DNA from: Gammaproteobacteria bacterium
GTDB lineage: Bacteria > Pseudomonadota > Gammaproteobacteria > Eutrophobiales > Eutrophobiaceae
Direction: 5' to 3'
DNA length: 64,000 bases
Assembly (NCBI GenBank): GCA_004297165.1
Contig: SCUJ01000006.1
Span: forward strand, 620,001-684,000
This document shows positions 3,831 through 52,898 of the stretch, in pieces. Made by a program: the position numbers and the translations under genes. The notes under the pieces are model-generated. The model was not told the origin of the DNA. It ran no database searches and was given only the letters and a program-made list of their open reading frames with translations. Position 1 is the stretch's first letter. The number at the start of each line of letters is the position of its first letter.

Positions 3831-5376
3831 CCTTCTTCTCCACTTCAAGCGCCAGATCGCGGAACCGGAACAGCTCATTCAGGCGATAGCCGGTATAACT
3901 GCCAAACAGGATGGCGATTGCCAGTACCACCAGCAGCAACTCGGGAAAGACGAACATCAGGTGTTGCGCCTGGTCATTGGTCATCACCAAATAACCGAGC
4001 ACCGCCACGGCCAAGCTGCCGAAGCCTTGTTTGAATGCCTCTACCGCGCCGGATTCATCCCAACTGATGGACATGCGCTCGATCACCATGGTCAGGATGA
4101 CCACCGGGAACAGCGCGATGGAGAATCCCTGGATCAACCCCAATTCGTTGCTTAGCAGGCTGATGGCAAGCATCATGATGATCACCAGGGTCAGAACCGC
4201 GGACAACCGCGCCACCAGCAGTAGGTGCAGGTGATTCAGATAAAACCGGAACAGCAGTCCGACGCCCACAATGGCCAGGAACAGGCCGATGCCCCATAAC
4301 AAACCGGTTTCCCGAAAAGCCATGGCGATGAGTATGGGCATGAACGTGCCGAAGGTGGGCACTCCGATGATGGTGCGCATGAACAACACCACCAGGGCGC
4401 CGAGCGGCACCATGATCAGGATGCGGTAGGTGTATTGGGTATTCATGGGCAATTTGTACAACGACCAGGATACCAGCGACGATTTCATGGCGGTGGCGCT
4501 GTCATGGGCAATCAAGGTCAATGCCTGCGGCCGCCGGGAAACGGCAAAATTGATCCCGACGTTTCGGCCATGCTCCACTTCCAGGATCGGATCGTCGTTA
4601 AAGCTCCAGCGCAGAAAATTCGCCGGGTAACCCTTTTCCCCGGTCAAGGGATTGAATCCTTCCCAGCGATCCCCGTTATGGACCTCCAGCCACGGCACCA
4701 GCGATTCATTGACCCGGCCTTCTTCCAGCGGTAGACCCCGCACCATGCGGGTGGAGATCTTCGCCCCCGCGAGGATGTAACGGATCCGTTGCACCCATTC
4801 CTCCGTGCCTGGGGTAATCCCCTTGGTGATGCTCTTGATGTCGCTGTCGGAGCTGGAGTTGTTCAGTCGCACCAGCAACTGGCTGACGAAGGTGAAGATA
4901 TTCGAGGACTCGCTGCGCACGTTATTCAACAACCCCTCGACCACCTGCGCGAGGGCCTCGGGATAATACGGTTTGTCTGGCGCCTGAGGCGGCTTCTCCA
5001 CACCGGCAGATTCCCCCCCTGCCATGGGCGCCTGCGCCAATTCCACCTGATAAAAGAGCCGCTGGGGTCCGCGGGCTTGGCGGATGGACCACTCGGCCAC
5101 CCGTTTCCGGCCGTGCTTTTCCACGTTGAGTCCGTAGTTGCGGGCGATGAAATATTCATCCAGGTTGATAAACTCGCCGGGGTCTGCCGGCAGTTGCAGA
5201 TGTACAGTCGATGCGCGCCGCTGTCCTTCGAACTCCACCCGCGCCTCGGCGGTCCAGATAAAAGATTTCTCATCCGGCCGCAGCGGAAATCCCAGATTGT
5301 TGAATTTCAGATAGGCCAAGCCGAACCCAACGACGGACAGGATCAAGGCCAATATTTGTATATGTCGCCTGCGCAT
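3805..5376 (-). CDS. Inactive transglutaminase fused to seven transmembrane helices
   Basis: A 523-residue membrane protein. An N-terminal anchor (IQILALILSVVGFGLAYL) is followed by about 290 extracytoplasmic residues with a transglutaminase-like core (SDIKSITKGITPGTEEWVQ, then AKISTRMVRGLPLEEGR) that appears to lack the catalytic Cys. The C-terminal half is strongly hydrophobic, about seven helices starting at YRILIMVPLGALVVLFM. This is the architecture known as inactive transglutaminase plus 7TM (UUP1-like), always encoded with an ATP-grasp ligase and a retropepsin-like protease. It probably binds a peptide outside and signals or transports inward; no family member has a settled function to my knowledge. 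It sits 20 nt after the protease gene. Confidence 0.85.
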   Translation of the reverse strand: MRRRHIQILALILSVVGFGLAYLKFNNLGFPLRPDEKSFIWTAEARVEFEGQRRASTVHLQLPADPGEFINLDEYFIARNYGLNVEKHGRKRVAEWSIRQARGPQRLFYQVELAQAPMAGGESAGVEKPPQAPDKPYYPEALAQVVEGLLNNVRSESSNIFTFVSQLLVRLNNSSSDSDIKSITKGITPGTEEWVQRIRYILAGAKISTRMVRGLPLEEGRVNESLVPWLEVHNGDRWEGFNPLTGEKGYPANFLRWSFNDDPILEVEHGRNVGINFAVSRRPQALTLIAHDSATAMKSSLVSWSLYKLPMNTQYTYRILIMVPLGALVVLFMRTIIGVPTFGTFMPILIAMAFRETGLLWGIGLFLAIVGVGLLFRFYLNHLHLLLVARLSAVLTLVIIMMLAISLLSNELGLIQGFSIALFPVVILTMVIERMSISWDESGAVEAFKQGFGSLAVAVLGYLVMTNDQAQHLMFVFPELLLVVLAIAILFGSYTGYRLNELFRFRDLALEVEKKDAGAGTGE

Positions 5377-20251: not shown

Positions 20252-23200
20252 TTGAATCAAGAGAATATTCAACTGAAAAACTACGCCGGGTCAGACCCGG
20301 TCGGCGCCGTCATGGTCGTTGGCGGTGGCATTGCCGGAATGCAGGCCTCGCTCGACCTGGCCGATGCCGGCTACAAGGTCTATCTCATCGAGAAGAAGTC
20401 CGCCATCGGCGGCCATATGGCGCAGCTCGACAAGACCTTCCCCACCAACGATTGCTCCATGTGCACCATCTCTCCCCGTCTGGTGGAGGTGGGTCGCCAC
20501 CCCAACGTCGAATTGCTGACGGACACCGAGGTCATGGCCCTCGAAGGCGAGGCCGGGGCCTTCACCGCCCGACTGCGCACCAACCCGCGCTTCATCGACG
20601 TTAAGACCTGCAACGGTTGCAGCAAGTGCGCCGAGGTCTGCCCGGTACCCGTAAAGAATCCCTTCGACATGGGCCAGGGTCTCGCGCGCGCCGCGCACAA
20701 GCTCTATCCCCAGGCCACACCCGACGCCTTCGCAATTACCAAGCGCGGAGTCGCGCCGTGCCGCGACGCCTGCCCGGCCGGACAACGGGCCCAGGGTTAC
20801 ATCGCCCTGATCGCCGCCGGTCGCATCGAAGAGGCCTATCGCTCCATCAAGACGGACAACCCCTTCCCCGCGATCTGCGGCCGGATCTGCAACGCCCGTT
20901 GCGAGACTGCCTGCACCCGCGGCAAGGTGGATGAACCCGTTGCCATCCGCGCCCTCAAGCGTTTCGTGACGGACACCGTCCATGCCGCGCCCCGCGCGCC
21001 CATCGATCCCGTACCGCGCAGATTCTCCGAGCGCGTCGCGATCATCGGCTCCGGCCCCTGCGGCCTGACCGCCGCACAGGACCTGTGCCTGCAGGGTTAC
21101 GCGGTCTCGGTGTTCGAGTCCTTGCCAGTGGCCGGCGGCATGCTGCGCGTGGGCGTACCGGAATACCGCCTCCCCGCCCCCATCATCGAGCGGGAGATCC
21201 AGGATATCGTCGATCTCGGCGTGGAATTGAAACTCAACAGCCCGGTCCGGCATATCGAGGATCTGTTCAAGGGCGGCTTCAACGCCGTGTTGATCGCCGT
21301 CGGCGCGCACGAAGGCATCCGCATGAACATCCCCGGCGACAACCTCGATGGCGTGCTCATCAATACCGAATTTCTCCGCGATGTGCGGTTGTGGGACTTC
21401 GACAAGGCGGCGCAACAAACAGCCGGCAAGGGCGATCCCGCCAATCTCGTCCAGGGCAAGCGGGTGGTGGTGGTCGGCGGCGGCGATGTGGCCGTGGATT
21501 GCGCGCGCACCTCGGTGCGCCTCGGGGCGGAGAGCGTCACCATGGCGGTGCGCGGCAGCGGCGGCAAGATGCCGGCCTCCGAACACGAGGTCCACGCGGC
21601 CCGCGAGGAAGGGATCGCGATGCACATCGGGCTCAACTTCCTGCGCGTGGTCGATGACGGCCAGGGCCGTGTCGCGGGACTCGAGGTGGAACGGGTGCTG
21701 CGTTTCGAGACGAAGCCGGACGGCCGTCGCGAGGCCGTGATAGAAGCGAATTCGAAACACATCCTGCCCGCCGATATCCTGATCTTCTCAGTGGGTCAGA
21801 AGGCAGGGCTTGCCTTCCTCCCCGATGACAGTGGCGTGAAACTCACCCGAAGCCGCGAGATCGATGTCAGCCACAAGACCTATGCCACTGACAGGCCGGG
21901 CGTGTTCGCCGCGGGTGATGCCGTGACCGGCACCGCCTTCGTGATCGACGCGGTCGCGAGCGGGCATACCTGCGCCGAGGCCATCCACCGGTATCTGCGC
22001 GGGGAATCTCCGGAACCGGTCTTCCCGCGCGATGAGCGCGTGGCGACCTGGTCGCAGGAGGAACTTGAACTCAAACTGAGAAGCGGCGAGATCAAACGCG
22101 CGCCGCGGGTGCGGGAACGCGACCTTGGCGCAGCCGATCGCCTAAACAATTTCACCGAGGTCCAGACCGGATATACCGCGGAAGAAGCCAAGGCCGAGGC
22201 CCTGCGCTGCCTCTCCTGCGGGGTCTGCTCGGAGTGCGAGAGCTGCGTGCGCGAATGCGGCGTCAACGCCATCGACCTCAACATGCTGAAGAAGGATCGT
22301 ACCCTCGAGATCGGCGCCGTGGTGATGACGCCCGGTTACCGGACCTATCAGGCTGAGCTCTCCGAGGAGTTCGGACTCGGCCGTTTCCCGAACGTGATCA
22401 GTTCCATCCAGTACGAGCGGCTCTTGAGCGCCTCCGGCCCGACCTCCGGCAAGGTGCAGCGCCCTTCCGACAAGGCCCGCCCGCAAAAGATCGCCTACCT
22501 CCAGTGCGTCGGCTCGCGCGATCAGAAACACGATTATTGCTCCTCGGTCTGTTGCATGTACGCCGCGAAACAGGCCTATATGACCCTGGAACACAATCCG
22601 GATACCCAGGTCCGCATCTTCATGATGGACATGCGCGCCTTCAGCAAGAATTACGAGGCCTACTATCAGCGCGCGCGGGAACGGGACGGCATCGAATACA
22701 CCCGCTGCCGGGTCTCCTCGATCAAGGAGAACCCCGTCAACCGCAACCTGGTCCTGAAATATTTCGAGCGCGCCGCGGTCCCCGCCGGCAAGGACGGCAA
22801 CAGTCATCCGGCCCCGCTCATGCAGGAAGAGGAATTTGACCTGGTCGTGCTCTCGGTGGGGATGGAGATCGGCGCGGAGACGCGGGAACTCGCCGGGCGT
22901 CTCGGCATCAGCCTCGACCGCAACGGCTTTTGCGAGACCCGCCAGTATGACCCGCTCCAGACCAGCCGACCGGGCATCTTCGCCGCCGGGACCTTCCGCG
23001 AACCGCGGGACATCAGCGAATCCGTCATCGAGGCCAGCGCCTCGGCGGCGGCGGCCGGGTCCTTCCTCTCCCGCGCCCGCAACACCCGCACCGAGGCCGT
23101 GGCCTATCCCGAACAGAAGGATGTCTCCGGCGAGGAACCGAAGATCGCCGTCTTCGTCTGCCATTGCGGCAAGAACATCAGCAGCGTCGTCAATGTCCGC

Positions 23201-24946
23201 GAGGTCAAGGAATACGCGGAGAAGCTCCCCAACGTCATCCACTGCGAGGAGACCATCTACGCCTGCTCGCAGGACAGCATCGCCGGGATCTCGCAGAAGG
23301 TGAAAAAACTCGGCGCCAACCGCCTGATCATCGCGAGCTGTTCGCCGCTCACCCACGGCAACCTCTTCGAGAGCAGCCTGAAGGCGGCGGGGCTCAACCC
23401 CTATCTCTTCGACATGGCGAACATCCGCAATCAGTGCTCCTGGGTGCACGGCAAGGACAAGCCGAAGGCGACCGAGAAATCGAAGGACCTCGTGCGCATG
23501 TCGGTGGCGCGGACCCGCAAACTGGATCCGCTCACCACCGAGGAGATGCCCATGACCAAGAGCGCCCTGGTGGTGGGCGGTGGCGCGGGCGGCATGGTTG
23601 CCGCGCTGGCGCTGGCCGATCAGGGTTTCCCGGTCGTGCTCGTCGAGCGGACCCGCGAGCTCGGGGGCAACCTGCGGAATATCCGCTACGGCCTGGACGA
23701 ATGGGGCGCGGGCAGCGCCCTCCCCGGCGTTGGCGAGACGGGTTATCTCGATCCACAGGTCTATCTTGCCAGGTTGATTGAGCGCATCGCCCAGCATCCC
23801 CGGATCAGCCTCCACCTCGAGACCGAACTCGCCTCGACCTCCGGCTTCATGGGCAATTTCACCTCCACCCTGAAACCCGTGAACGACTCCCTGAAGGAAG
23901 GCGACCGGATCCAGATCCAGCACGGCGTAGCCATCCTCGCCACCGGCGGTGAGGAATACAAGGGCGACGAATACGGTTACGGGACGAGCAAACGGATCGT
24001 GACCGGGCTCGAATTCGAACAACTGCTGGCGCGGCACGAGCGCGGCGAGATGCGCGCCGACGATCCGCAACTGCCGGACTCGCTGGCCATGATCCTGTGC
24101 GTGGGCCCGGCGGAGAAATACTGTGGCAGGATCTGTTGCAGCACGGCCATGAAGAACGCACTGATCTACAAACGCCTGAAACCGGCGGGCCGGGTGACCA
24201 TCCTGTTCAAGGACATCCGCACCTACGGCTTCAAGGAACGCCTCTACACGGAGGCGCGCATGCAGGGCGTGGTCTTTATTCAGTATGACGATACGAGCCC
24301 ACCGGCGGTGACTACCGAGAGTAATGGTGAATTAAAGATCAAAACCTGGGACGCCATCCTCGGCAAGGAGATCACGCTGACCCCGGATCTGCTGATGCTG
24401 AGCAATCCTATCGTGCCCTCGCCCGCCGCGAAGGAATTGAGCGAGCGCCTGAAGGTGCAGGTGGACATGCATGGCTTCTTCCTGGAGGCGCACGTCAAAC
24501 TGCGGCCGGTGGACTTCGCCTCGGAAGGCATCTTCATGGCCGGGATCGCCCATTATCCGAAACTGCTCGACGAATCGATCATCCAGGCCCAGGCCGCCGC
24601 GGCCCGCGCCGCGAGTCTGATGTCCCATGACACCATCAAGACCGGCGGCAAGGTCGCCAGGGTCAATCAGCGACTCTGCGTCGGCTGCCTCACCTGCGTG
24701 CGCAGTTGTCCCTTCGGCGCGCCGGGCATCGACGACGCGCTGCTCGGGATCGGCGCAATCGATGGCGCGGCGCGGATCATCCCGGCCCTGTGCCAGGGTT
24801 GCGGGGTCTGCGCCGCCGCCTGTCCGGCCGGGGCGATCGAGTTGCTGCATTATACGAATGAACAAATGATGGCCAAGATCGACGCCCTGTTCGACAAGGA
24901 CGGCGCGGAGATGGCCGCACACACGGAGCATCAGCATGAACACTGA
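20252..24946 (+). CDS. hdrA: HdrA-like multidomain flavoprotein with inserted GltD/NfnB-like module
   Basis: A 1564-residue protein, several times the size of simple HdrA. Domain order by approximate residue: HdrA-type FAD fold (VVGGGIAGMQASLDLA, 22-37) with the cysteine-rich NDCSMCTISPRL; ferredoxin-like CNGCSKCAEVCP (120-131); a GltD/NfnB-like unit with N-terminal Fe-S cysteines (170-225), FAD site IIGSGPCGLTAAQDL (264) and NAD(P) site VVVVGGGDVAVDCART (405); a second cluster CLSCGVCSECESCVRECG (653-670); the HdrA CCG-like region YLQCVGSRD (750); a second HdrA unit (FVCHCGKN, 968; VVGGGAGGM, 1107); and a C-terminal 2[4Fe-4S] ferredoxin, CVGCLTCVRSCP and CQGCGVCAAACP. The start is TTG. It is likely the electron-bifurcating or confurcating core of a MetF-Hdr complex; the GltD-like part suggests an NAD(P)H site. 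Mechanism is inference. Confidence 0.9.
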   Translation: MNQENIQLKNYAGSDPVGAVMVVGGGIAGMQASLDLADAGYKVYLIEKKSAIGGHMAQLDKTFPTNDCSMCTISPRLVEVGRHPNVELLTDTEVMALEGEAGAFTARLRTNPRFIDVKTCNGCSKCAEVCPVPVKNPFDMGQGLARAAHKLYPQATPDAFAITKRGVAPCRDACPAGQRAQGYIALIAAGRIEEAYRSIKTDNPFPAICGRICNARCETACTRGKVDEPVAIRALKRFVTDTVHAAPRAPIDPVPRRFSERVAIIGSGPCGLTAAQDLCLQGYAVSVFESLPVAGGMLRVGVPEYRLPAPIIEREIQDIVDLGVELKLNSPVRHIEDLFKGGFNAVLIAVGAHEGIRMNIPGDNLDGVLINTEFLRDVRLWDFDKAAQQTAGKGDPANLVQGKRVVVVGGGDVAVDCARTSVRLGAESVTMAVRGSGGKMPASEHEVHAAREEGIAMHIGLNFLRVVDDGQGRVAGLEVERVLRFETKPDGRREAVIEANSKHILPADILIFSVGQKAGLAFLPDDSGVKLTRSREIDVSHKTYATDRPGVFAAGDAVTGTAFVIDAVASGHTCAEAIHRYLRGESPEPVFPRDERVATWSQEELELKLRSGEIKRAPRVRERDLGAADRLNNFTEVQTGYTAEEAKAEALRCLSCGVCSECESCVRECGVNAIDLNMLKKDRTLEIGAVVMTPGYRTYQAELSEEFGLGRFPNVISSIQYERLLSASGPTSGKVQRPSDKARPQKIAYLQCVGSRDQKHDYCSSVCCMYAAKQAYMTLEHNPDTQVRIFMMDMRAFSKNYEAYYQRARERDGIEYTRCRVSSIKENPVNRNLVLKYFERAAVPAGKDGNSHPAPLMQEEEFDLVVLSVGMEIGAETRELAGRLGISLDRNGFCETRQYDPLQTSRPGIFAAGTFREPRDISESVIEASASAAAAGSFLSRARNTRTEAVAYPEQKDVSGEEPKIAVFVCHCGKNISSVVNVREVKEYAEKLPNVIHCEETIYACSQDSIAGISQKVKKLGANRLIIASCSPLTHGNLFESSLKAAGLNPYLFDMANIRNQCSWVHGKDKPKATEKSKDLVRMSVARTRKLDPLTTEEMPMTKSALVVGGGAGGMVAALALADQGFPVVLVERTRELGGNLRNIRYGLDEWGAGSALPGVGETGYLDPQVYLARLIERIAQHPRISLHLETELASTSGFMGNFTSTLKPVNDSLKEGDRIQIQHGVAILATGGEEYKGDEYGYGTSKRIVTGLEFEQLLARHERGEMRADDPQLPDSLAMILCVGPAEKYCGRICCSTAMKNALIYKRLKPAGRVTILFKDIRTYGFKERLYTEARMQGVVFIQYDDTSPPAVTTESNGELKIKTWDAILGKEITLTPDLLMLSNPIVPSPAAKELSERLKVQVDMHGFFLEAHVKLRPVDFASEGIFMAGIAHYPKLLDESIIQAQAAAARAASLMSHDTIKTGGKVARVNQRLCVGCLTCVRSCPFGAPGIDDALLGIGAIDGAARIIPALCQGCGVCAAACPAGAIELLHYTNEQMMAKIDALFDKDGAEMAAHTEHQHEH

Positions 24947-25427
24947 GACCGTATACGAACCCAACATCGTCGCCCTGTGCTGCATGCACTGCGCCTACGC
25001 AGCGGCGGATCTTGCCGGCAGCTCGCGCTTTGGCTATCCGCCCTCGCTGAAGATTGTCGCCATGCCCTGCACCGGCCGCACCGACATGGGCCATCTGTTG
25101 AAGACCTTCGAGGACGGCGCCGACGGGATCCTCGTCGCGGGTTGACTGCCCGGACGCTGCCACTATTTGAGTGGCAATCTCTACGCAAAGCAAAGGGTCG
25201 ATTACGTCGCCGATCTGTTGCGGCAGATCGGCCTGCAGCCGGAACGCATCCGGATGATCAACATCTCGGCCGGTATGGGGGCGAAGTTCGCCGAGCTCGC
25301 CAGCGAGTTCGCGGCGACGATTGCGTCCCTGGGACCGACCGGCCTGCACAGGCATGACCACGGCCGGGAGATCCCGCTCGCGCCGGATCCCGAGCGCACG
25401 GAACCCGCGGCCGAGAAGGCCGTTTGA
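24936..25427 (+). CDS. mvhD: MvhD-like [2Fe-2S] electron-transfer subunit, probable selenoprotein (TGA read as Sec70)
   Basis: Read through one in-frame TGA (25143-25145), this is a 163-residue MvhD/VhuD homologue: PNIVALCCMHCAYAAADLAG, PCTGRTD, DGADGILVAG-U-LPGRCHY, then LSGNLYAKQRVDYV. The TGA replaces the conserved Cys of the G-C-x-x-G-x-C-H motif. That Cys is Sec in VhuD of some methanogens. Reading continues without frame change on both sides and the downstream sequence is fully family-like, so this is not a random stop. A hairpin starts 12 nt past the TGA. The protein passes electrons between HdrA and partner subunits. It starts 11 nt inside the hdrA 3' end. Sec insertion needs selA/B/C elsewhere in the genome. 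Confidence 0.85.
25158..25176 (+). promoter_or_regulatory. Candidate bacterial SECIS hairpin
   Basis: TGCCAC, loop TATTTGA, GTGGCA (an extra T-A pair is possible inside). The stem begins 12 nt after the in-frame TGA, the distance expected for a SelB-binding hairpin inside a coding region. The usual G at the start of the loop is not present, so the fit to the known bacterial consensus is partial. Confidence 0.5.
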
Positions 25428-25446: not shown

Positions 25447-26142
25447 ATGATAGTTGCTGAACAGAAACCGGTGGCGACCCTCAAAGAGATGCTGCGCGGC
25501 AAACGCAAGATCCTCGCCGTGGGCTGCGGGACCTGCGTCGCGGTCTGCTTCGCGGGTGGCAAGCGCGAGGTCGGCATCCTCGCCGCGGCCCTGCGCATGG
25601 CGACCGAACTCGACGGCGCCAGGGTCGAGATCGACGAGGCCATCGTCCAGAGGCAATGCGAATACGAGTACATCGATCCCCTCAAGGACAAATTGAACCA
25701 ATACGACGCCGTCCTCTCGCTCGGATGCGGGGTCGGCGTGCAAACGCTCGCGGACCGCTTCCAGACCACCCGGATCCTCCCGGCCCTGAACACGAAGTTC
25801 ATGGGCGGACCGACCGAACAGGGCGTGTGGGAGGAACGCTGTCAGGGCTGCGGCAACTGCCTTCTGGATGTGACTGGCGGCATCTGCCCCATCACCCGCT
25901 GCTCCAAACAGCTCATGAACGGGCCCTGCGGCGGCACGGATACCGGGGGCCGCTGCGAGGTTGACAAGGAGATCCCCTGCGCCTGGTACATGATCTGGGA
26001 GCGCATGGAAAAACTCGGTCTCCAGGACGAACTCATGGAGGTGCGCCCGCCCAAGGACTGGTCCACGAGCCGCGACGGCGGGGTGCGCAAGATCGTTCGC
26101 ATGGACCTGCGCAAGCCCGATCCCAAGGATTTCCAAGAATGA
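25447..26142 (+). CDS. metV: MetV, zinc/Fe-S partner of methylenetetrahydrofolate reductase
   Basis: A 231-residue protein of the MTHFR C-terminal-domain (MetV) family. Cysteine motifs are spread throughout: VGCGTCVAVC near the N-terminus, SLGCGVGVQT, ERCQGCGNCLLD, GGICPITRCSK and NGPCGGTDTGGRCEVD. In Moorella MetV forms a tight heterodimer with MetF. The flanking genes, mvhD upstream (19-nt gap) and metF downstream (19-nt gap), reproduce that arrangement. It likely relays electrons from the Hdr/MvhD part to the MetF flavin. The family call is strong; the route is inferred from the acetogen complex. Confidence 0.93.
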   Translation: MIVAEQKPVATLKEMLRGKRKILAVGCGTCVAVCFAGGKREVGILAAALRMATELDGARVEIDEAIVQRQCEYEYIDPLKDKLNQYDAVLSLGCGVGVQTLADRFQTTRILPALNTKFMGGPTEQGVWEERCQGCGNCLLDVTGGICPITRCSKQLMNGPCGGTDTGGRCEVDKEIPCAWYMIWERMEKLGLQDELMEVRPPKDWSTSRDGGVRKIVRMDLRKPDPKDFQE

Positions 26143-26161: not shown

Positions 26162-27169
26162 ATGAACGCCCAAACCGCGACACAGACCGCAACCCCAAAT
26201 CCGCAGCTCAAGTCCGGCAGCAACCTGGAGAAGGTCCTGGCCGCCGGCCACTTCGCCGTCACCGGCGAGATCGGCCCGCCGAAGTCCTGGCGCGCCGAGG
26301 TCATCCGCAAGAAGGCCGGTCTGCTGAAGGGCTGTGTGGATGCCGCCAACATCACCGACAACCAGACGGCGATCGTCCGCATGAGCAGCATCGCCACCGG
26401 CATCATCGTCATGCAGGAGGGTCTTGAGCCGATCATCCAGGTCACCTGCCGGGACCGCAACCGGCTCGCGATGCAGAGCGACATCCTCGGCGCCGCCGCC
26501 CATGGCCTGAAGAATGTCTTGTGCCTGTCCGGCGATCACCAGTCCTTCGGCAACCATCCCGGCGCGAAGAACGTGCATGACATCGATTCGATGCAGCTCA
26601 TACGCATGTTCCGCGACATGCGCGACAGCGGCCTGTTCCAGTGCGGCGAGGCGATCACCGATGGCGGCCCGCCGCTGTTTATCGGCGGCGCGGCCAATCC
26701 CTTTGCCGATCCCGTCGATCTGCGTCCGTTGCGTCTGAAGAAGAAGGCCGTCGCCGGCGTGGATTTCGTGCAGACCCAACTCATCTACGATATGGATCGG
26801 TTTCGTGAATTCATGAAAAAGGTGGTCGAGCTGGGCATTACGGAAGCAGTCAGCGTACTGGCCGGCGTCGGCCCGCTCAAAAGCGCGGGCATGGCGCGCC
26901 ACATGCGGGACAACGTGCCGGGGATGCGCGTACCCGATGCGATCGTAAAGCGCATGGAAGGCGCGGTGAACGGCATCGACAAGGACGACAAGGCCGCCCG
27001 CAATGCGGCCTGGCGGGCCGAGGGCATCAAGATCTGCATCGAACAGATCCAGGAAGTGCGGGAGATCCCCGGGGTGGCCGGCGTGCATGTGATGGCCATC
27101 GAGTGGGAAGAGGCCGTGCGCTCCATCGTCGAGGGCGCGAAACTCCTGCCGCGCCCGGTACTGGCCTAG
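26162..27169 (+). CDS. metF: 5,10-methylenetetrahydrofolate reductase
   Basis: A 335-residue TIM-barrel flavoenzyme: FAVTGEIGPPKSW with the catalytic Glu, ADITDNQ-type segment (AANITDNQTAIVRMSS), QVTCRDRNRLAMQSDIL, LCLSGDHQSFGNHPGAKNV and GVDFVQTQLIYDMDRF. It interconverts methylene-THF and methyl-THF. The sequence is of the acetogen/MetV-dependent type and not E. coli MetF, and it lies in an operon with MetV, MvhD and Hdr subunits in place of an independent NADH-linked gene. The in vivo direction (methyl synthesis or methyl oxidation) is not shown by the sequence. Confidence 0.95.
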   Translation: MNAQTATQTATPNPQLKSGSNLEKVLAAGHFAVTGEIGPPKSWRAEVIRKKAGLLKGCVDAANITDNQTAIVRMSSIATGIIVMQEGLEPIIQVTCRDRNRLAMQSDILGAAAHGLKNVLCLSGDHQSFGNHPGAKNVHDIDSMQLIRMFRDMRDSGLFQCGEAITDGGPPLFIGGAANPFADPVDLRPLRLKKKAVAGVDFVQTQLIYDMDRFREFMKKVVELGITEAVSVLAGVGPLKSAGMARHMRDNVPGMRVPDAIVKRMEGAVNGIDKDDKAARNAAWRAEGIKICIEQIQEVREIPGVAGVHVMAIEWEEAVRSIVEGAKLLPRPVLA

Positions 27170-27173
27170 CGTG

Positions 27174-28574
27174 ATGGACATGTCCGCCAGAGCGAAACCC
27201 GACGCGCCCCTCTCCGCCAGGGTGCTCGATCGCATCGGGCAAAACATCTTCCGTTGTTACCAGTGCGTCAAATGCACCAGCGGCTGTCCGCTCGCGGATC
27301 AATTCGATTTGCGGCCCAACCAGGTCATGCGCAGCCTGCAACTCAATGACGCGAGTGTGTTGAAAAGCAGGGCCATCTGGCTCTGCGCCTCCTGCCAGAC
27401 TTGCGCCACCCGCTGCCCCCAGGAGATCGATGTCACTGGCGTGATGGACCTGCTGCGCATCGAGGCCCGCGAGCGCGGCATCCCGTCCGCGATCCCGGAG
27501 ATCTCCCGCTTCAACGATCTGTTCATGGGACTCATCCGGCGCATGGGCCGGGTTCCCGAGTTGCTGTTGATCCTGATCTACAAACTCGCCACCGGAAAGG
27601 TCTTCACCGATATCCGCATGGGGACGCACATGCTGCTGAAGGGCAAGCTGCGTCTCATCCCGAAGATCGTCCGCACGCCGAGAGAAGTAAAACCGCTCGC
27701 GGATACCGCGGGCAAGGTCGCCTACTTCCCCGGTTGCTCGGGGGATTCCTCCGCCCGCGAATACGATCACACGGTGCGCAACACCGCCAAGGTCCTCGGC
27801 ATCGATCTGGTCGAGCCGCCCGGCTGGGTCTGTTGCGGTTCGAGCCCGGCGCACGCGACCGATCCCGTCGCCGCGCATGTCTATCCCCTGCGCACCATGG
27901 CGACTATCGAGCGGCTGGGCTTGGATACAGTCACCTCGCCGTGCAGCAATTGCTTCTCGCGGCTCAAGATGGCCGAATGCGAGGGCATGGAAGACACCGC
28001 CGCGCTGCAACAGGTGGCCGCGATCACGAATTACGACTACCAGGGCAAGGTGAAGGTGCAGCATTTCATCGACACCATCCTGGATCACGCGACGCCGGCG
28101 CAGATCGCGGAGAAGGTCAAACGACCGCTGCGCGGACTCAAGGTTGCCTGCTATTACGGATGCCTGATCACACGTCCCGCGAAGAAGACCGGCGCGGAAC
28201 ATGCGGAATACCCGATGAAGATGGATTACCTCATGCAGGCACTCGGCGCGGAGACCGTGGACTGGTCCTTCAAGACCGACTGTTGCGGCGGATCGCTCAG
28301 CGTCACCCAGACCGCGGTCTCGCTGAACATGTCGCGCAAGGTGATCCAGAATGCCCGCGACTGCGGCGCGGACGCCGTCATCACCATGTGCCCCATGTGC
28401 CACATGAACCTCGACGCCCGCCAGGATCAGATGGGGATCGATTTCCGCCTGCCCATTCTCCACTCCACTCAGCTCACCTCCCTTGCCTTCGGCCTGCCGG
28501 AGCGGGAGGCCCACCTCGACAAGAACTTGGTCGATCCTAGGCCACTCTTCACGAAGCTCAAACCCGCCCCCTAA
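27174..28574 (+). CDS. HdrC-HdrB fusion, heterodisulfide reductase-like
   Basis: A 466-residue fusion. Residues 1-100 are HdrC-like with two [4Fe-4S] motifs, [12 protein letters not shown] and [13 protein letters not shown] helical linker follows, and then HdrB with two CCG domains: [11 protein letters not shown] with CSNC, and [13 protein letters not shown] with CPMCHMN. HdrB in methanogens binds noncubane clusters that cleave heterodisulfides; bacterial relatives probably use other acceptors. It starts 4 nt after metF and overlaps the yjbQ start by 1 nt. With HdrA, MvhD, MetV and MetF it completes an MTHFR-Hdr complex. A GTG one codon upstream and an ATG two codons downstream are alternative starts. 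Confidence 0.93.
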
Positions 28575-51194: not shown

Positions 51195-52898
51195 TCATAT
51201 CTTCCACACCTTTGTGTACGCACGATCTGCAAGTACCTGGGTCCGCGCTTCAATATCTTGCGCGGTCCAGTCTGTAGCCGAAGCGATTTCTGTCGGCAAG
51301 ACAAATCCTGCAACCCGTAGGATCTTCTTCTTTTCTTTGAACGACTTATCCCCCAACTTGGAGTTCATATCGCCCGAAAGGAGAATAAGATTGCCCAATT
51401 GTCCAACAATTCCCTCGGTGAAATCACCAGTACCAACGCAACTCTGCGGTACCAAGTGCTCAATGGTCATTGAGTCGTAATCTATGGTCGTCCCAGTTGT
51501 TTTTGCTTTGTCGAACCCAACTAATATGTACTTCACGAGAGCGCGTTGTTTGGTGATTTCATCGGTATAGACGATCTGCGGAAAAAGCGCCTTGAACTCG
51601 CCCAATACGGGGACTCGATCCCGTAACTTCTCCTTGAGTTCCTTTATGACACTGAGTGCTGTAGCGAGATCGTGCGACTCAAACAGGCGCCGACCGAGTG
51701 ACGCGTACATTTCTGAGATTCCGCCCGACGACCTTTGCGATGTAACGGCTGTGAACAGGAAGTGGAACTTTTCGATCGCCACTAGTGCATCCTCAAGGTG
51801 CCGCTTTTTGATAGTCTTTCCCTTGAACGACCTAAGAAGTGAAAGTACGCAGGGCGTCTGTTGCTTGACGCGGAAAAGTTGCAGCGCATTGAGGGCCTCT
51901 GGTATGCGCCTGTCCTGCTTGGGCCACTTACCGAATGTGACTTCGTGAATCATCCTGTAAAGACTGGCGTCTGAAACGAGCGAGTCGAGGAACGCCTTGG
52001 TCTCCGCCTTTGTAATCCGACGTTTTAGGGTCTTGTAGAGGGTCTTGGCGGACAAGTAGTCGTAGCGCGATAGCCAGAAGTGATGGAGAAATGAATCCGT
52101 CTCGAGATCACAGGCCGCCGCCTGAATTGTCTCAAGCATGCGCTGCCACTTGACCTTTGTTTGGTCTATGGATGCGCTCTTCGTCTTGAGATGTTTGTTC
52201 ACATGGTTCTTGACTAGATCTGTTAAACTTAAATCCTTCCCCCGCGTATTTAGTGTCTCGAAGATGATGTACGCATCGTCCTCATCGTCGAGTTTCACAC
52301 AGATCACCTTCAGGTTCAGCAGTGCATCGCGTATATCAGTCAGTTTCTGTTTGATCGCAACCTTCTTCTTGTTTTCAGAAAGGCTCGGGTCAGATGATTG
52401 ACTCGTGATGACGTCACCGACCAGGCTCGTGAGTTGGTCGAAGGCAGATTGTAGATTCTGTTCCTCTGCAAGCGGGTTCACAGGAACGTCGGGTGCACCC
52501 CACTTGAGGATGTGATCCTGAAAGAATGGGTAGGATGTCTCCGTGGATAGAATGAATTCCGGCTTGTTGTCTATGTTCTTGCGTTCAATCAATCCGTGAA
52601 TTCCTTGGGCCAGATCATTGAAACCTTGTGTATCAAGCGTGTTCCGCAAAACAGCGAGAAGTAGGGTGATAGTCGTTAGCCGCTGTTGCCCATCGACGAC
52701 TCCAAATCGCTGATTGCCGTCCTTGAATACGACCATAGAGCCGATGAAGTAGTCTGTCGGTCTGTCTTTAACTATATCGTCCCAAAATTCCTGAATATTC
52801 TCGCGAGTCCAAGAATATGGACGCTGGAAACGAGGAATGCGGTAGTAGCCGGATGAAAGGAGGGTTCTAATCTCTTGGTCAGTGGATTCAATCTTCAT
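51195..52898 (-). CDS. DUF262/DUF1524 protein (GmrSD-like defence nuclease family)
   Basis: A 567-residue protein. The N-terminal DUF262 (ParB-like NTPase) has YYRIPRFQRPYSWTRENIQEFWDD, YFIGSMVV and VVDGQQRLTTITLLLAVLR (DGQQR nucleotide motif). The C-terminal DUF1524 has YDSMTIEHLVPQS and GNLILLSGDMNSKLGDKSF, an HNH-type nuclease pattern (EHxxP..N..LL..N). The two halves form the GmrSD type IV restriction arrangement, in which modified phage DNA is cut with NTP use. No other restriction genes adjoin. Codon use is visibly more AT-rich than the neighbours, suggesting acquisition. Confidence 0.88.
   Translation of the reverse strand: MKIESTDQEIRTLLSSGYYRIPRFQRPYSWTRENIQEFWDDIVKDRPTDYFIGSMVVFKDGNQRFGVVDGQQRLTTITLLLAVLRNTLDTQGFNDLAQGIHGLIERKNIDNKPEFILSTETSYPFFQDHILKWGAPDVPVNPLAEEQNLQSAFDQLTSLVGDVITSQSSDPSLSENKKKVAIKQKLTDIRDALLNLKVICVKLDDEDDAYIIFETLNTRGKDLSLTDLVKNHVNKHLKTKSASIDQTKVKWQRMLETIQAAACDLETDSFLHHFWLSRYDYLSAKTLYKTLKRRITKAETKAFLDSLVSDASLYRMIHEVTFGKWPKQDRRIPEALNALQLFRVKQQTPCVLSLLRSFKGKTIKKRHLEDALVAIEKFHFLFTAVTSQRSSGGISEMYASLGRRLFESHDLATALSVIKELKEKLRDRVPVLGEFKALFPQIVYTDEITKQRALVKYILVGFDKAKTTGTTIDYDSMTIEHLVPQSCVGTGDFTEGIVGQLGNLILLSGDMNSKLGDKSFKEKKKILRVAGFVLPTEIASATDWTAQDIEARTQVLADRAYTKVWKI

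Follow-up and report, generated by a model that had tools for sequence, protein, structure and literature searches.

The closest described relatives of this locus are the Hdr-type methylene-tetrahydrofolate (THF) reductases, whose gene set is known from Moorella and Sporomusa (PMC9430772). In these systems MvhD interacts with HdrA, HdrB and MetF, the Sporomusa interactions having been found by pulldown (PMC9430772). Structures of Hdr complexes show that MvhD holds a [2Fe-2S] cluster and relays electrons in the direction of the HdrA FAD (PMC12350162). The MvhD family is also listed as a selenoprotein family with up to two selenocysteine (Sec) residues (PMC13188914). Sec-containing MvhD/FrhD has been reported in Desulfobacterium (PMC2702500), Desulfococcus (PMC5109826), and Moorella, Syntrophobacter and Geobacter (PMC1794560), as well as in Carboxydothermus and archaea (sources for the family's list: PMC2702500, PMC5109826, PMC1794560 and PMC13188914). 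A 2006 survey found FdhA to be the only selenoprotein in most gammaproteobacteria (PMC1794560), and a 2026 review described Sec-containing [NiFe] hydrogenase subunits, FrhD/MvhD included, as restricted to sulfate reducers and methanogens.

We analysed a 64,000-nucleotide window of a gammaproteobacterial genome (3.53 Mb, 13 contigs, 98.95% complete, 0 contamination). Its mvhD gene, which belongs to a Moorella-type HdrA-MvhD-MetVF-HdrCB operon, is very likely a selenoprotein form, with the in-frame UGA at codon 70 (UGA70) as its Sec codon.

An Hdr-type methylene-THF reductase operon

The genes of an Hdr-type methylene-THF reductase, hdrA, hdrBC, mvhD, metV and metF, were found in one operon on the forward strand. 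The hdrA gene (20252–24946) encodes a 1564-aa protein with Cys only, in which HdrA is joined to a GltD/Nfn-like NAD(P)H module (Pyr_redox_2 in four stretches, Fer4_20, Fer4). The ATG of mvhD (24936–25427) overlaps the hdrA stop codon, and the mvhD stop is followed, 19 nt on, by metV, encoding the MTHFR-associated FeS subunit (25447–26142; PF12225, 1.2e-35). The metV gene is followed by metF (methylene-THF reductase; 26162–27169; PF02219, 4e-36) and by an HdrC-HdrB fusion (27171–28574) with CCG domains and Fer4_17, whose match to the HdrB model TIGR03288 (2.3e-45) is below the cut-off. The initial annotation had placed MvhD next to MetF and MetV, and both genes indeed lie directly downstream.

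The gene set is the same as that of Moorella and Sporomusa HdrABC-MvhD-MetVF. The Moorella HdrA is likewise large, with a fused extra module (162.8 kDa, PMC9430772), and the HdrBC fusion resembles that of marine Chloroflexi (PMC5736913). The locus differs from the Moorella and Sporomusa systems in its order, hdrA-mvhD-metV-metF-hdrCB, in the Sec proposed here for MvhD, and in a host that is not an established acetogen.

A Cys-type MvhD paralogue (L015; G000:C13:560673-561044; 255 aa), only about 42% identical to mvhD, was found between an HdrA-like gene and a gene for a NuoE-like [2Fe-2S] protein of thioredoxin fold, and these neighbours indicate a second Hdr electron-transfer locus in the genome. 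Elsewhere in the window, a GmrSD-type restriction endonuclease gene (51195–52898, reverse strand) lies in a region whose GC3 is lower (0.59) and was possibly acquired.

An in-frame TGA at a conserved cysteine of MvhD

The interval 24936–25427 is a 164-codon frame. When the TGA at 25143–25145 (codon 70) was read as U, translation gave 163 residues followed by a TGA stop: MNTETVYEPNIVALCCMHC...DGILVAG-U70-LPGRCHYLSGN...EKAV. The FlpD profile (PF02662; FlpD/FrhD/VhuD family) matched residues 11–133 of this product over profile positions 1–123 of 123, spanning the TGA (E 5.6e-45; 152.8 bits against a cut-off of 22.3). This confirmed the earlier statement that family sequence runs gapless and in the same frame on both sides of the TGA; MvhD/FlpD is encoded continuously across it. 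The split by gene callers was also as first described, into a 69-aa frame and a second frame at 25167–25427, and the case illustrates how such programs divide and lose UGA-containing genes.

The composition and divergence of the two parts of the gene were compared. GC contents at the three codon positions were alike before (0.58/0.49/0.84) and after (0.68/0.47/0.83) the TGA. Against relatives of 72–76% identity, dN was low on both sides; for the homologue L034 it was 0.076 before and 0.114 after the TGA, with dS about 1.7 or saturated.

Residues C16, C19, C45, C70 (U here) and C75 were invariant in the alignment of mvhD homologues (A2). The initial annotation had located the TGA at the conserved Cys of the family and had proposed an alignment of column 70. 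This column was Cys in every other homologue read, encoded by TGC or TGT in L034–L037, L018, L039 and L081–L085, which are all the MvhD orthologues of this type that were readable. Inner-TGA flags at L041 and L042 proved to be ordinary C-terminal stops and were rejected as Sec, and L074 and L085 were rejected as UGA orthologues on account of a Cys at the codon-70 column. Three further flagged loci (L075, L076 and L079), in which this column was not placed by the motif search, stand outside the Cys/UGA tally.

A structural homologue, PDB 9sfi_K, has a non-standard residue (X) at the columns of C19 and C70. As a control, Sec140 of E. coli FDH-H (1aa6) is printed as X in the same structure library; we therefore read the X residues of 9sfi_K as Sec, and this entry is a probable structural precedent for Sec at the codon-70 column. 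An AF2 model of the full-length product, with U modelled as C, matched MvhD of Methanothermococcus (5odh_D) with a TM score of 0.87 (by target length) and an rmsd of 1.8, as expected for the MvhD fold. Given this match of the full-length model, the predicted fold requires the segment of MvhD encoded downstream of the UGA.

The protein shares with the Sec-FrhD/MvhD/VhuD of sulfate reducers, acetogens and methanogens its PF02662 family, an adjoining hdrA and a probable Sec at the same column (9sfi_K). It differs from them in its gammaproteobacterial host, in its operon partner metVF and in having one Sec only: both Cys residues of the first CxxC (C16, C19) are kept, while in 9sfi_K an X occupies the C19 column too.

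Selenocysteine machinery and the hairpin after the UGA

Profile searches of the contigs detected selA, selB, tRNA-Sec and selD, the set expected of a bacterial selenoprotein producer, in the source genome; absence of this machinery had been named at the outset as grounds for abandoning the Sec proposal. Contig C2 contains selA (584 bits), selB (363 bits; cut-off 242) and a tRNA-Sec with anticodon TCA. Other selB-profile matches, at 184–194 bits, were in the EF-Tu range below the cut-off and were not counted as SelB. A second tRNA-Sec profile match above the cut-off was found at C13:578010 (48.6 bits). About 1 kb after selA, a partial match to the SelA C-terminus (L011, G000:C2, 9059–9253, forward strand; profile 305–366; 30.6 bits) is perhaps a duplicated fragment.

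Besides mvhD, three genes have a TGA at known Sec sites. The formate dehydrogenase gene fdh contains ARL-U-HAPTVTGL, and selD, on contig C13, has its own in-frame TGA at the usual Sec position (TCG-U-AAKIG). The third, a 563-aa UGSC-family fusion (L011, G000:C2, 4765–6456, forward strand; TGA 5083–5085; ILAVGD-U-GSCTKYLVYDS), is located between selB and selA; its N-terminal part matched the NCBIfam UGSC model at 74 bits, short of the 125 bits set as equivalog cut-off. Selenoproteins of the UGSC family have been described before, both alone and fused to a further domain (PMC2398784). The machinery together with these TGA codons indicates that several proteins of the organism very probably contain Sec. 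These three genes, the Sec machinery and the probable Sec in the 9sfi_K column support the initial view of mvhD as a probable selenoprotein.

A hairpin was proposed early on, as a 6-bp stem 12 nt downstream of the UGA. The hairpin and its 12-nt spacing were confirmed; the stem, however, is 7 bp long (UGCCACU-AUUUG-AGUGGCA, 25158–25176, forward strand; local energy −9.5 kcal/mol) and is a candidate SECIS apical stem-loop. It forms part of a wider imperfect hairpin with two 3-bp lower helices (25147–25187, forward strand; MFE −14.9 to −15.2 kcal/mol). The local energy surpassed about 99% of synonymous recodings (P about 0.01); the stability of the wider region was not unusual relative to shuffles and recodings (z −1.27; P 0.12–0.45). 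Hairpins of comparable strength were lacking at this position in five Cys relatives.

The bSECIS model specifies an upper stem of 4–16 bp with an apical loop of 3–9 nt, 16–37 nt from UGA to loop, an MFE of at most −7.5 kcal/mol, and a G at loop position 1 or 2, or at both (PMC13188914, Fig. 2). The mvhD hairpin agreed with three of these four constraints: stem and loop (7 bp, 5 nt), spacing (loop starting 19 nt after the UGA) and energy (hairpin −9.5 kcal/mol; 45-nt segment −14.9 kcal/mol). It lacked the loop G, the loop being AUUUG (or UAUUUGA), and no alternative hairpin with a loop G was found in 75 nt of mvhD. An Rfam search of mvhD returned no SECIS match, only chance-level hits. Because of the missing loop G, we did not file the hairpin as a standard bSECIS, and the case for a SelB-binding element is weaker than first supposed. 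Like E. coli-type bacterial SECIS elements, the hairpin lies inside the coding region just after the UGA, and it agrees with them in the length of its stem, the size of its loop, its spacing and its energy; the loops of those elements, however, start with G or GU. Some bacterial SECIS elements do not satisfy the bSECIS model (PMC13188914, for one). The RNA evidence is thus suggestive, not decisive.

The other Sec genes were examined in the same way. The fdh and selD elements of the source genome, both with apical loop GGUCU, and the selD element of the related genome G019 agreed with all bSECIS constraints. The UGSC gene had a weaker, imperfect stem with a GU-initial loop as a near-optimal fold. 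Two genera of one family, represented by G019 (L047) and the source genome (L012), have Sec-SelD with nearly identical SECIS elements (loops GUCU and GUCC); seven other SelD matches in the order lack a stop, and their frames, about 750 residues long, appear to encode fused forms. After the UGA of mvhD, four rare codons (GGA, AGT, GCA and AGG) occur in 17 codons, a density reached in 4.6% of windows in other genes. This is a weak sign of selection for RNA structure, because GGA is also found in the Cys relative L082.

We propose that ribosomes arriving at UGA70 would be served by SelB with Sec-tRNA, aided by the stem-loop 12 nt on, so that Sec would take the place of the family's conserved Cys in G-C/U-x-x-G-x-C-H. 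Within an HdrA-MvhD-HdrCB-MetVF complex, the complete MvhD would then act as electron connector through its [2Fe-2S] cluster, with U70 presumably at or near the cluster, perhaps as a ligand, and the complex may couple NAD(P)H and/or ferredoxin to methylene-/methyl-THF.

Origin of the UGA and alternative readings

The closest relatives of mvhD are Cys forms in gammaproteobacterial MAGs (L034, L035/G005, L036 and L037; 72–76% identity). Their neighbours are alike where read (hdrA and metV, at L018), and they differ in having TGC or TGT at codon 70 and no SelB above the cut-off in the genome: selB was not detected at this level in G005 (= G419), G418, G420 or G421, and selA was not detected in G418, G420, G421, G906, G885, G835 or G848. 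In G315, MvhD (56% identity) is a Cys form, yet the genome has SelB. No second UGA-bearing mvhD orthologue was found in samples of 53 genomes of the order, 369 of the class, 398 of the phylum and 109 of other orders (partly overlapping), and a congeneric genome (G002, 76% complete) gave no mvhD match. A UGA in at least two orthologues is a published criterion for a new selenoprotein family; membership of a known family does not depend on it. In the tree, the UGA sequence grouped with four Cys sequences (support 90/96), the order inside the group being unresolved. The simplest reading is a Cys-to-Sec change in the source lineage, although repeated loss of Sec may also account for the pattern.

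The same distribution could reflect a recent nonsense mutation of a Cys codon (TGC or TGT) to TGA, leaving a dead gene or a 69-residue fragment, with the hairpin a by-product of coding for C-H-Y-x-x-G-N. The uniformly Cys close orthologues, the position of the UGA sequence inside a Cys clade, the lack of a conserved UGA in the other sampled genomes and the missing SECIS G are all consistent with this. However, the Cys version of the gene allows 39 single-base nonsense changes within codons 1–135, and just one of them produces TGA at codon 70, a known Sec column. Decoding of Sec in other genes of the genome, the intact remainder of mvhD and of the operon, and a local hairpin above about 99% of recodings also argue against it, and we consider such a mutation unlikely.

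A base-calling or assembly error, with TGC or TGT read as TGA in an ordinary Cys-MvhD, is suggested by the single genome and by codons one base apart; given the few contigs, high completeness and absence of contamination of the assembly, and the very low chance of a random error at codon 70 in a genome with Sec machinery, it is highly improbable. Least probable of all, and barely credible, is a regulatory UGA at which low selenium would cause termination, so that metVF and hdrCB, further along the operon, would be translated less, with Sec inserted only in part. The weak appearance of the SECIS and the tight operon, in which mvhD overlaps hdrA and metV follows at 19 nt, would suit such a switch, but the Cys paralogue L015 lies in another Hdr locus and is only about 42% identical to mvhD.

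The Sec reading of UGA70 is therefore preferred. While Sec-MvhD as such is known, its gammaproteobacterial host, its place in a metVF operon and the atypical SECIS appear to be new. The initial annotation had called a Sec-MvhD by MetF/MetV in a gammaproteobacterium little documented; in the part of the literature covered, we found neither a gammaproteobacterial Sec-MvhD nor one encoded by a metVF operon, although the Moorella Sec-FrhD may be its metVF-linked copy. We see about an even chance that the locus records a lineage-restricted Cys-to-Sec switch in a gammaproteobacterial Hdr-MetVF electron connector, its UGA being read through a hairpin without the apical G/GU of the genome's other SECIS elements, a single SelB thereby recognising two types of SECIS.

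If true, these findings would extend the range of Sec-MvhD to gammaproteobacteria and make Sec part of an Hdr-type methylene-THF reductase complex. With canonical SECIS elements in the same genome for comparison, mvhD would also be a case in which departures from the G-loop model can be tested.
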